A stretch of 64,000 nt of DNA, taken from NCBI GenBank assembly GCA_024207135.1, contig CP042428.1, positions 2,170,001 through 2,234,000 on the forward strand. The letters are read 5' to 3'. The translations under genes were made by a program, and so were the position numbers. Numbering within the stretch: position 1 is the stretch's first letter; every line of letters begins with the position of its first letter. The notes beneath the pieces were generated by a model, which was not told the origin of the DNA, made no database searches, and worked only from the letters and a program-made list of their open reading frames with translations. Origin of the DNA: Arthrobacter sp. C2 (GTDB taxonomy: Bacteria > Actinomycetota > Actinomycetes > Actinomycetales > Micrococcaceae). Positions 5,835 through 35,351 of the stretch are shown in pieces.

Positions 5835-5996
5835 TCGACCATATTATGTGCTTTTGCACCGTTTGTGGCATGGAACTCGTTGAGAAACGTGCGACGCATC
5901 ACGGTGGATCCTTGGCAAGATAAACATCATCCCCACAAACCGGATGGCATGCAGCGACGCACCGGCCCTCCCCTTGAGATCAGGCAGAAAATTCCC

Positions 5997-7319
5997 ATGA
6001 CCCACACTGGAACACTCGAAGCTGGTGCAACCCGAGAAATCTCCGACAAGGAGGCCACCAAGGTTGCCATTGGTGCCCTCATTGGCACGGCCATGGAGTG
6101 GTACGACTTCTTCCTCTTCAGCGCTGCCGCCGCGCTGGTATTCAACATCCAGTTCTTCGACAGCCAGAATGCCACGGCTGCCGCCATGGCAGCCTTCGCC
6201 ACTTTCGGCGTGGGACTCGTGGCCCGCCCCATCGGCGGAATGATCTTCGGGGTCATGGGCGACAAGATCGGACGCCGCAAGACGCTCATGGTGACCATCG
6301 TCGGCATCGGCATCATCACCGGCCTGATCGGCTTGCTGCCCACCTACGCGGCCATCGGCATCGCGGCCCCGATCCTGCTGGTGCTGCTGCGCATCGCCCA
6401 GGGCCTGTTCGTCGGCGGCGAATGGTCCGGAGCCATGACCATCGTCGTGGAAAACGCACCCCTGCACCGTCGTGCCCGTTACGCGGCACTGCCGCAGATC
6501 GGCTCCCCCATTGGCACGATCCTCTCCTCGGGAGGCTTCTTCCTGATGACCGTGTTCCTGTCCCAGGAAAGCTTCGACGCCTGGGGCTGGCGCATCCCGT
6601 TCCTGGCTGCGATCCCGATGCTGCTGGTCGCACTGTACATCCGCAGCCGCCTCGATGAGTCCCCGGTATTCAAGGAATTGATGGAAAATGGCGAGACCGA
6701 AAAGGCCCCGATCCGCACCACGCTCAAGGAATCCTGGAAGCACATCATCATCGGCATGGCTGCCGGCATGCTCGGCATCGGCGGTTTCTACCTGGTCACC
6801 GCATTCGTGGTCTGGTACGGCGTCAACGTCCTGGAATACGAGCGTTCGCTGATGCTGCTTGGCGGCATCATTGCCGCCCTCGTGGAAATCCCCGTGTTGA
6901 TCATTGGCGGCCGCCTCGGCGAGCGCTTCGGCTCCTCCAAGGTCATCACCTACGGCGGAATCTTCTCCGCGATCATTGCCTGGCCCGCCTTCATGCTCAT
7001 CGATTCGGGCAACGACGTGCTGGTCATCGCCGGCATGACCCTGGCCGTCGCGGCGCTCTCGCTGCCCTACGCCGCCTCCGGCACGGTGCTCACCGGGCTG
7101 TTCCCGGCCAAGACCCGCTACACCGGCGTCGGCTTCGCGCAGAACACCGCGGGCATGATCTCCGGGTTCATCCCGCTGGCCGCCACCGCCTTGGTCGCCG
7201 CCGCGTCCAACCACTGGTGGCCCGCCGCCGCCATGCTCATCTTCCTGTCGCTGTTCACCGCGGTTGCGGGCGTCATCGCCCCGAAGCTCAGCGTCGACCT
7301 GCCCGGCTTCAAGCACTAG
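5997..7319 (+). CDS. MFS transporter, metabolite:H+ symporter (MHS) type
   Basis: 440 aa with about 12 membrane spans. The family signatures are clear: AMEWYDFFLFS in the first span, GVMGDKIGRRKTLM in the loop between spans 2 and 3, and RIAQGLFVGGEWSGA. MHS members carry small carboxylates or zwitterions (2-oxoglutarate, shikimate, proline/betaine, benzoate-type acids) with protons. ATG 5997 is the first start that gives a normal cytoplasmic N-terminus; upstream in-frame codons are antisense to PucR. It is the first gene of the putative operon and is followed by a perfect 19-bp hairpin. It probably imports the acid degraded by the next three enzymes. Confidence 0.88.
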   Translation: MTHTGTLEAGATREISDKEATKVAIGALIGTAMEWYDFFLFSAAAALVFNIQFFDSQNATAAAMAAFATFGVGLVARPIGGMIFGVMGDKIGRRKTLMVTIVGIGIITGLIGLLPTYAAIGIAAPILLVLLRIAQGLFVGGEWSGAMTIVVENAPLHRRARYAALPQIGSPIGTILSSGGFFLMTVFLSQESFDAWGWRIPFLAAIPMLLVALYIRSRLDESPVFKELMENGETEKAPIRTTLKESWKHIIIGMAAGMLGIGGFYLVTAFVVWYGVNVLEYERSLMLLGGIIAALVEIPVLIIGGRLGERFGSSKVITYGGIFSAIIAWPAFMLIDSGNDVLVIAGMTLAVAALSLPYAASGTVLTGLFPAKTRYTGVGFAQNTAGMISGFIPLAATALVAAASNHWWPAAAMLIFLSLFTAVAGVIAPKLSVDLPGFKH

Positions 7320-34567: not shown

Positions 34568-34858
34568 AACAACAGTCCTCGTTGATTCAAAGCCGAGGCA
34601 CAGGCTAAACGCGGAGGTTTCTAGGTAACACGGAATCGAATCAGAGAACCCGATTAGTAGAATGCTTCTTCAACATTTCTAGGTGTCAGGAAGCGCCAGG
34701 GCCGGTTTGCCGTCAATCACAGAATTACTAGCGTTCATGCAGTCAGGCAGTGCGCTATCTTCGCGCAAGGTCCTGAAGTTGAACCAGTAATATACGGGTT
34801 GTAAACGATGGCAGGGATCGCTCAGGCAGAAGCAGAGCAGCAGTGTGCTAAAAACGGG
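34568..34858. other. AT-richer intergenic DNA, no plus-strand gene recognised
   Basis: These 290 bases between the exporter and the minus-strand terminator have visibly lower GC than the flanks. They hold two copies of TTTCTAGGT (about 34618 and 34676) but no open frame with a ribosome site. Together with 34859-35351 they look like inserted or eroded sequence. Confidence 0.5.
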
Positions 34859-34880
34859 AAGGACCCCTCTCGGGGTCCTT
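34859..34880 (-). terminator. Rho-independent terminator of the 44-codon gene
   Basis: AAGGACCCC and GGGGTCCTT pair perfectly over 9 bp around a 4-base loop. On the minus strand CCCGTTTTT follows. It begins 12 bases after the small-gene stop, the distance expected for its terminator. Confidence 0.75.
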
Positions 34881-34882
34881 CG

Positions 34883-35223
34883 GTTCGTTGTCTCAAAGTG
34901 GGAGGCGGGCTGCCATTACCCCAGCTCCTACGGCCCAAACGGTTTCAAGTCCATATTGCCACCATGAGCGGGTTGCCCCTGATACTACTTGGTTTCCTAC
35001 AGATGCCACTGAGTGAGCTGCTTTCATATTGATACTCCTTGTCCTACTGTTTCGACGATTATTTTGTTCCTTCTGACGAAGGTGCTTCGCGTGCGACGAC
35101 TTCATTCGAAGGCCTCGCTCGCTCAAAAACCGTAGAAAACTGAGAAAAAGCAGTCCCGCCATTACTTCTATTGAGAAGCCCCAGTTTTGAAGTGGGACCG
35201 CCTCCAGCTTTTAGACAACGAAC
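34883..35223. repeat. Imperfect 27-bp inverted repeats bounding a 341-base segment
   Basis: The sequence at 34883-34909 and the reverse complement of 35197-35223 agree at 23 of 27 bases, with 11 identical in a row (GTTCGTTGTCT). The outermost matching TG...CA lies at 34889 and 35217. The pair looks like transposon-type ends around a small cargo, but no transposase and no flanking direct repeat was seen. A MITE-like element or the ends of a deleted insertion sequence are possible. Confidence 0.4.
34893..35027 (-). CDS. Small gene, 44-aa peptide of unknown function
   Basis: The 44-residue product has a polar N-terminus (MKAAHSVASVGNQ), then SGATRSWWQYGLETVW and a hydrophobic, glycine-containing C-terminus (AVGAGVMAARLPL). 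Net charge is low, and it could form an amphipathic or membrane-associating helix. Support for a real gene: a consensus ribosome site AAGGAG (35040-35035) 7 bases before ATG, and a terminator just after the stop. The frame continues upstream to 35162 without a better start. It is convergent to the NatAB-type exporter and downstream of a two-component system, so a small membrane peptide, toxin or bacteriocin-like product is conceivable. No family is recognised. Confidence 0.5.
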   Translation of the reverse strand: MKAAHSVASVGNQVVSGATRSWWQYGLETVWAVGAGVMAARLPL

Positions 35224-35283
35224 TGACAGGAACTGTACATCATATCTAATGACTTTTTGCGGTCGGACAGCTGGCTTCATAAC

Positions 35284-35338
35284 TAACGAAGACTCGTAGC
35301 GTTCCCCTCTATGGGAATGCTACGAGCCTTCGTCGTTA
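35284..35338 (-). terminator. Terminator hairpin of putA
   Basis: A long imperfect stem (CGAAGACTCGTAGCGTTCCC with GGGAATGCTACGAGCCTTCG, wobble pairs only, extended by TAACGA/TCGTTA) with a CTCTAT loop begins 14 bases downstream of the putA stop. The T-run is short. Confidence 0.65.
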
Positions 35339-35351
35339 GAGCTTCGGGATA

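Follow-up and report, generated by a model that had tools for sequence, protein, structure and literature searches.

A small minus-strand gene of Arthrobacter sp. C2 with one coding frame, a predicted end-to-end RNA fold and a tRNA-like T-loop hairpin

Results

A compact gene with its own ribosome site and terminator

The window, by which we mean the whole stretch of 64,000 nucleotides of Arthrobacter sp. C2 that was analysed, carries on its minus strand a 44-codon open reading frame at 34893-35027, between genes for NatB and PutA. An earlier note, made from the letters of this DNA alone, had proposed it as an unlisted gene, and translation bears this out: the product reads MKAAHSVASVGNQVVSGATRSWWQYGLETVWAVGAGVMAARLPL* and includes a conserved C-terminal core, [FWI]WQYxxExxWA. 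The ribosome site that the note had described, AAGGAG, lies 7 bases 5' of the ATG at 35035-35040, and a purine-rich site precedes this inner start in 5 of the 6 complete copies of the element described below. An intrinsic terminator follows at 34858-34881 on the same strand. The hairpin with its T-run had been foreseen, but with a stem of 9 bp placed 12 bases past the stop; it has a 10-bp stem and a 4-nt loop and starts 11 bases past the stop, with TTTTT 4 bases beyond the stem and a contiguous T-run on the minus strand only. A terminator scan called the hairpin on both strands and returned 2 sites vs 1.2 expected in shuffles, which is no excess on this count alone; the four nearest copies each have a hairpin resembling a terminator, identified by eye in all but the window's own. 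The G+C content falls to about 51% here, compared with 65-70% in the flanking DNA, in line with the AT-richer DNA already remarked upon.

The start of the transcript is less sharply marked. A candidate -10 box, TACAGT (35232-35237, minus strand), stands 7 bases upstream of the element's 5' end, and an alternative, TATGAT (35239-35244, minus strand), was preferred by a promoter scan of the copies. No convincing -35 box was found near the candidate -10, and a standard promoter scan of the window called no sigma-70 promoter at the element; a -10-like box of varying quality occurs just upstream of the 5' arm in 5/6 copies. The unit is flanked by a 29-nt inverted repeat, 86% complementary, at 34880-34908 and 35198-35226, the left arm of which overlaps the final codons and stop of the ORF. 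Searched with up to 3 mismatches, the inverted-repeat pattern has no further site in the 4.56-Mb genome of the strain (backward control, 0). Because the repeat is unique in its genome and homologues in the same frame occur in six other genomes, we regard the element as more than a product of chance. Directly past the PutA stop lies a separate long hairpin (35283-35334), the source of weak microRNA matches in Rfam, which is probably the PutA terminator.

Homologues are sporadic and sit at unrelated sites

Besides the window, six homologous loci were found in the same family, the Micrococcaceae, each at an unrelated site: L043 (Arthrobacter sp. H14-L1), L044 (Arthrobacter sp. Soil736), L047, L063, L064 and L065. 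With the window, all but L044 make up the six complete copies. Apart from L044, which came up together with L043 in another search, they emerged from searches of 395 genomes of the family. A scan with the arm pattern matched 5 genomes, namely the window's own, G106 with 2 mismatches and three with 3 mismatches (L037, L038 and L041), whose sequences were not read and which are not counted as homologues; the G106 match (L039) marks a homologous element and lies on the same contig of H14-L1 as L043. A DNA search also matched five, among which L047 (G266) is new and genuine; L048 and L049 were rejected as chance matches inside genes resembling transporters by eye. A four-row profile matched nine genomes at E <=0.01, including the window's own, G106 and G266, and added L063 (G241, E 1.8e-15), L064 (G353, 4.8e-7) and L065 (G264, 1.8e-4). 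The remaining matches (L066-L069, in three genomes), which were unread, fall inside open frames of at least 695 aa and were set aside. A seven-row profile gives 1.1e-25 for L064 and 4.9e-24 for L065, values that are not independent, both loci being rows of that profile. By our count the element is carried by 6 of the 395 family genomes, one being the window's own, and in addition by Soil736.

Beyond these, the searches were negative. The window alone was matched among 396 genomes of the order by a DNA query that detects near relatives only, and among 98 genomes of the class by a profile search; in two member genera the element is absent from 28/30 and 14/15 genomes. A protein search of 98 relatives returned, besides the window, chance-level matches only, the best with E 0.0099 inside a frame of 742 aa, and a DNA search of the same number with the NatB-PutA gap gave no homologue, its three matches of 21-46 bases (G002, G086, G005) being dropped. 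No homologue was found in plasmid and phage collections, by DNA search included, or in IMG/VR, the matches obtained being short or having E values of 2-9; the exact arm pattern has 0 matches in the genome_contigs and viral_contigs collections, and viral scans with the queries A2, A6 and A7 and with a T-arm pattern found none. Further rejected candidates are L051-L059 (unread; matches of 25-38 bases, to either the terminator or a single G+C-rich stretch), H1-H9 (short matches) and H10-H17 (E >=2).

The neighbourhoods of the copies differ. In H14-L1 the element lies near genes for SSB, ArdC-like and TraG/TraD-like proteins, on a contig with conjugation genes; in G241 (L063) it neighbours a GIY-YIG gene, with a type II secretion F-domain gene and a helicase gene farther away. 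The Soil736 copy adjoins what we take to be an aldehyde dehydrogenase gene, and the neighbours in G353 (L064) are presumably ribonucleotide reductase genes. No gene travels with the element among the neighbours inspected, of which some were identified.

These contexts bear on the idea, put forward in the earlier note, of a membrane-active or signalling peptide tied to an exporter and two-component system just upstream. NatB lies downstream of the ORF and convergent with it. It is kept in 13 of 14 same-genus relatives, and the element is absent from all 13 NatB stretches, 9 of which are complete to PutA and the other 4 of which stop at the end of the locus or contig; whole-genome searches of all 14 relatives found no element either. 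With the homologues beside other genes, the proposed link to NatAB and the two-component system is not supported. That the inner start gives rise to a bacteriocin or signalling peptide for export, with which a short Trp-rich product and a conserved ribosome site would agree, is improbable: the neighbours inspected, a minority of them identified, include no common exporter, immunity or sensor gene, the peptide matches no family, and NatB persists in 13 relatives that lack the element.

The NatB-PutA gap (34568-35351 in the window) has equivalents in the relatives (L071-L083) that carry varied small cargo. One holds a VapC-like PIN gene (L071; the Pfam PIN match, E 1.5e-6, passes its cut-off and the NCBIfam VapC match does not) beside a VapB-like partner that scores below its cut-off, and L072 encodes proteins nearly identical to those scanned in L071, bringing VapBC-like pairs to 2/13 relatives. 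A Phd/YefM antitoxin gene (L082; E 8.6e-10, above cut-off) occurs in 1/13, and L080 encodes a HicB-like protein below its cut-off. Further relatives have a Cro/C1-type regulator (HTH_26, scanned in L075) with a protein resembling a membrane protein; by eye, membrane-like proteins similar to that of L075 are also found in the gaps of L074, L076-L080 and L083. Since this cargo is small and varied and some of it is of toxin-antitoxin type, the site is a landing place for small cargo. At 34731-34790 the C-terminus of NatB recurs in degenerate form (QSGSALSSRKVLKLNQ vs QTGSALSWRKALKLED), which suggests that the segment with the element entered by recombination at the NatB end.

The ORF is the conserved half of a longer frame

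The extent of the gene was underestimated at the outset: the 44-codon ORF is coding-like, but no stop interrupts its frame over the 45 codons that precede the inner ATG, a stretch that the earlier note had overlooked and that is coding-like as well. The long in-frame form (34893-35162, minus strand) would have 89 aa. Between the window and L043, the nearest of the other complete copies, its 89 codons differ at 22.2 of 63.8 synonymous and 32.8 of 203.2 nonsynonymous sites (Fisher p 0.002, on counts that assume independent sites and ignore restraint of synonymous sites by RNA structure), as against p 0.51 and 0.93 in the other two frames. The upstream 45 codons contribute the stronger part of this signal (dS 0.545, dN 0.174, p 0.005) and the inner ORF the weaker (dS 0.402, dN 0.191, p 0.09). 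In a conserved 22-codon core the four pairs tested all show synonymous excess (window-L047, p 0.013; L043-L047, 0.010; L043-L063, 0.007; L043-L064, 0.0004). Over the whole frame L047 and L063 show none (p 0.49), which either counts against the coding reading or reflects young divergence. The upstream part retains R-[FL]-[LS]-S-[DE], with its serine encoded by AGT/AGC, TCA or TCC.

All six complete copies keep the frame open. The start of the long form varies (ATG, GTG or TTG, and no clear one in L065) and lacks a good ribosome site, whereas the inner ATG has one in 5/6. By these comparisons of sequence a longer coding frame exists, of which the 44-codon ORF forms the conserved C-terminal half, and the 44-aa form is possibly also made by itself. 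In L064 and L065 the frame continues beyond the 3' arm, and there the closing helix described below consequently falls within the coding region.

As to the protein, the maxima of hydropathy over 19 residues range from 0.68 to 2.28 (five copies, L063 left out) and exceed 1.6 in L064 only. An AlphaFold2 model places helices at residues 2-60 and 67-85 with a mean pLDDT of 59.9, which is low confidence. With hydropathy moderate and the two-helix model of low confidence, a membrane-active peptide is possible. The earlier note had matched the peptide to no family, and none was found in Pfam, NCBIfam, PHROGs or PADLOC (best E 0.072-0.15), the NCBIfam scan having covered the 44-aa form and the further library scans the long forms of the window, L043 and L047. 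Rfam gave no family at gathering level, with weak matches below gathering scores. The small gene is real, and belongs to a scattered family without a name in the libraries searched.

The transcript is predicted to close end to end

Two features that had escaped the first inspection are an end-to-end RNA fold and a T-loop hairpin. In the predicted fold, all on the minus strand, helix P1 pairs 35213-35223 with 34883-34893, its 3' strand beginning at the last base of the stop codon; P2 pairs 35200-35205 with 34901-34906, within the last codons of the ORF; and P3/P4 joins 35128-35157, which encodes the first part of the long form, to 34907-34935, which encodes the C-terminal part. The 5' region would in this way pair with the second half of the ORF, and the predicted partner of the 5' end, in the four nearest copies, is the stretch immediately past the stop. 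Minimum free energies fall below those of shuffled sequences with z of -4.2 in the window, -4.5 in L043, -3.2 in L047, -3.2 in L064 and -4.7 in L065, and weakly so in L063 (-1.9). End-to-end pairing is predicted in 6/6 copies; the same number of end pairs is reached by 2-18 of 100 shuffles.

Covariation was examined on an alignment of the window, L043, L047 and L063, against the structure that the window and L043 give as a consensus fold. Over these four sequences P1-P4 comprise 47 pairs with 91.5% of cells paired, 8 pairs changed on both sides and a covariation score of 0.305 vs 0.190 in shuffles, in each case with 0/500 shuffles as high; the score is at most 0.128 when the structure is slid along the alignment. 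Further pair types are less exceptional in number (33/500 shuffles). The formed fraction is 97.7% in P1, 100% in P2 and 85.6% in P3/P4. Among 172 cells, P1-P4 contain 32 G-U vs 2 A-C, a ratio to be read with the knowledge that helices picked from sense folds favour G-U; P1 and P2 alone have 5 G-U vs 0 A-C. Of the two strands, the sense strand gives the better fold in 6/6 copies. The G-U bias and the better folding of the sense strand point to an RNA of the coding strand rather than to DNA ends.

The inverted repeat had first suggested a mobile element, a MITE or the relic of an insertion sequence, in which the repeats would be DNA ends and the ORF incidental. Terminal inverted repeats of 29 nt and the presence of the element at unrelated sites are what such an origin would produce, yet the element is single in its own genome, the profile search accepted one match per genome, no target duplication is seen by eye, the helices reach into the coding region with a sense-strand G-U bias, and the unit has a coding signal and its own terminator. 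The fold z-scores, the covariation and the sense-strand bias led us to drop this reading, which is largely disfavoured and now very improbable.

The Soil736 copy (L044, around 5940-6231) is a natural half-deletion. Both the T-loop hairpin and the 5' arm are missing from it and the 3' arm has drifted, while the protein of its ORF is 95% identical to that of L043. Drift of the 3' arm where the 5' arm is absent is expected if pairing had kept the arm conserved.

A T-loop hairpin at a fixed position

At 35180-35196 on the minus strand lies a hairpin with the loop of a tRNA T-arm, CCCAC TTCAAAA CTGGG. It begins 28 nt into the element (30 in L047, where the start was set two bases earlier) in all six complete copies, and consists of a 5-nt stem around TTCRANN with 4 or 5 of the 5 pairs formed. 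The stem has been exchanged between copies and still pairs: CCCAC/CTGGG in the window, CTGGG/CCCAC in L064 and AAGGG/CCCTC in L065. Shuffling the first 60 nt yields such a hairpin in 0.3-0.8% of cases, by a criterion set after the hairpin had been seen. Over the six sequences 86.7% of T-arm cells are paired, and covariation reaches 0.667 vs 0.218 in shuffles (0/500), while two of the five measures in this test are unremarkable (51/500 and 168/500 shuffles). ARAGORN found no tRNA or tmRNA in the elements, which contain no complete tRNA-like domain; readings as a permuted tmRNA or a Y-RNA-like molecule were considered and gain no support from ARAGORN or from Rfam at gathering level. In L064 and L065, the most distant copies, the 5' arm (TTGGTTGAGG...) resembles a tRNA D-arm and could pair alternatively, so that the 5' domain of these two copies may switch between a tRNA-like and a closed fold.

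The comparison of copies demonstrates selection, at the level of sequence, on the element's RNA for an end-to-end fold, a T-loop hairpin and a small protein in one frame. It also raises the question whether the RNA is the main product and the small protein a further one. Such an RNA would be regulatory or mimic a tRNA, its T-loop lying beside a closing helix, and a tRNA enzyme or RNA-binding protein would bind it. A TTCRANN loop on a stem maintained by compensatory change at a fixed place, together with conserved long-range helices, speaks for such a role; conservation of both halves at the amino-acid level, for instance of a serine through AGT, TCA and TCC, speaks against it, as do the lack of an Rfam match at gathering level and of a tRNA or tmRNA call by ARAGORN. 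On balance we consider it unlikely.

Discussion

The reading that we find most likely, and hold tentatively, is a type-I-toxin-like role for a small membrane protein. The element would be a stand-alone gene on the minus strand with an mRNA of about 350 nt, starting near 35224 and ending at the terminator (34858), whose one frame could yield a protein of 89 aa and, through the inner ribosome site, one of 44 aa. The protein would be a two-helix, membrane-associated peptide that in excess harms its own cell, and the fold, by pairing the 5' region into the coding sequence, would keep its synthesis low, as in hok, AapA and sprG1. The T-loop hairpin would serve to lock the fold or as the target of a tRNA enzyme, and the element, carried by plasmids or islands, would spread as a gene for stability or defence. 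Counting for this type-I-like reading are the unrelated sites of the six further loci, one of them on a contig with conjugation genes, the covariation, fold energies, sense-strand bias and coding signal given above, and the toxin-antitoxin genes in the NatB-PutA gap of 3/13 relatives.

We do not claim membership of the type I toxin-antitoxin systems, because the ribosome site is unmasked in silico, no antisense promoter is shared and hydropathy is modest. The hok/AapA-type long-distance interaction of 5' and 3' ends is predicted here and covaries. Masking of the hok/AapA type is not supported: with the 3' strand of P1 and everything 3' of it removed in silico, the accessibility of the inner ribosome site is unchanged in 4/6 copies. 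In the window the ribosome site stays at 0.49 (0.49 -> 0.49) and the start at 0.86 (0.86 -> 0.86); in L047 the values rise from 0.36 to 0.41 and from 0.36 to 0.58, this being the sole copy whose start opens; and in L063 the ribosome site goes from 0.35 to 0.29, all of these figures coming from a thermodynamic model only. Antisense promoters share no common site among the four best per copy in the six copies, and no homology to a described toxin family was found in Pfam, NCBIfam, PHROGs or PADLOC.

The same observations lend themselves to a harmless or helpful small membrane protein, a partner or regulator of some other membrane complex, whose mRNA would be long-lived through a 5' end closed beside the terminator, with neither toxin nor antisense control. 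With the fold closed, the inner ribosome site is still accessible by about half and the start for the most part (0.49/0.86 in the window, 0.56/0.76 in L043), the protein evolves as coding, and the copies share no antisense promoter. Against it stand the sporadic distribution (6/395 family genomes, 0/13 same-genus genomes with NatB), the contig with conjugation genes in one case and the lack of a co-travelling gene among the neighbours inspected; we regard this explanation as possible, if somewhat doubtful. A more particular version of the toxin-like role, in which a tRNA-mimicking toxin mRNA of Actinobacteria has its T-loop hairpin stacked on the closing helix in imitation of an acceptor/T-arm, and a tRNA enzyme or processing nuclease acts there to gate a two-form membrane toxin whose coding sequence joins the inhibitory fold, strikes us as rather unlikely.

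The element stands out because selection acts on one stretch of about 350 nt in two ways at once: on the protein, of which there may be two nested forms, and on an RNA fold that joins both ends and includes a tRNA-like hairpin. Units of this kind escape an annotation that goes by ORF length. A literature search that left subscription papers and preprints outside its reach found nothing matching the family. Among the papers listed for type I toxin-antitoxin systems together with Actinobacteria, titles and abstracts name neither, which hints at a gap and is no proof of one; if the type-I-toxin-like reading is true, the element would be a self-folding toxin gene in this phylum.

Among known systems, hok/Sok and AapA/IsoA come closest in layout: like them, the element has a short mRNA with its own terminator, predicted pairing of the 5' and 3' ends and a small protein with a possible hydrophobic segment. 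These systems have plasmid and chromosomal copies, and the element may be alike in this. It differs from them in that its 5' region pairs with the coding sequence, and in four copies also just past the stop, in that its inner ribosome site is unmasked in silico and no antisense RNA was found, and in having a T-loop hairpin and no family match. In the account on which we draw, the full-length hok and aapA mRNAs are inert through a stable fold until 3' trimming, the inert fold of aapA being a 5'-3' long-distance interaction (PMC6733600).

With sprG1/SprF1 of Staphylococcus aureus the element shares a single frame with two starts and the possibility of a long and a short peptide. The sprG1 gene is described as encoding two in-frame membrane toxins of 44 and 31 aa (PMC8309996), as against forms of 89 and 44 aa here; the end-to-end fold and the T-loop are features of the element that the part of that account used here does not mention for sprG1 (PMC8309996). 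The VapBC-like and Phd/YefM type II genes resemble it in occupying the same chromosomal site, the NatB-PutA gap, in 3/13 same-genus relatives; they belong to protein-antitoxin families identified by Pfam, none of which the element matches. A 5-nt stem, a TTCRANN loop and an adjacent longer helix liken the hairpin to a tRNA T-arm or the tRNA-like domain of tmRNA, from which it differs in coming after the 5' strand of the closing helix and in accompanying an ORF with start codons. An end-to-end fold around a coding region is an architecture known from some bacterial toxin genes, and the element may act as these do.
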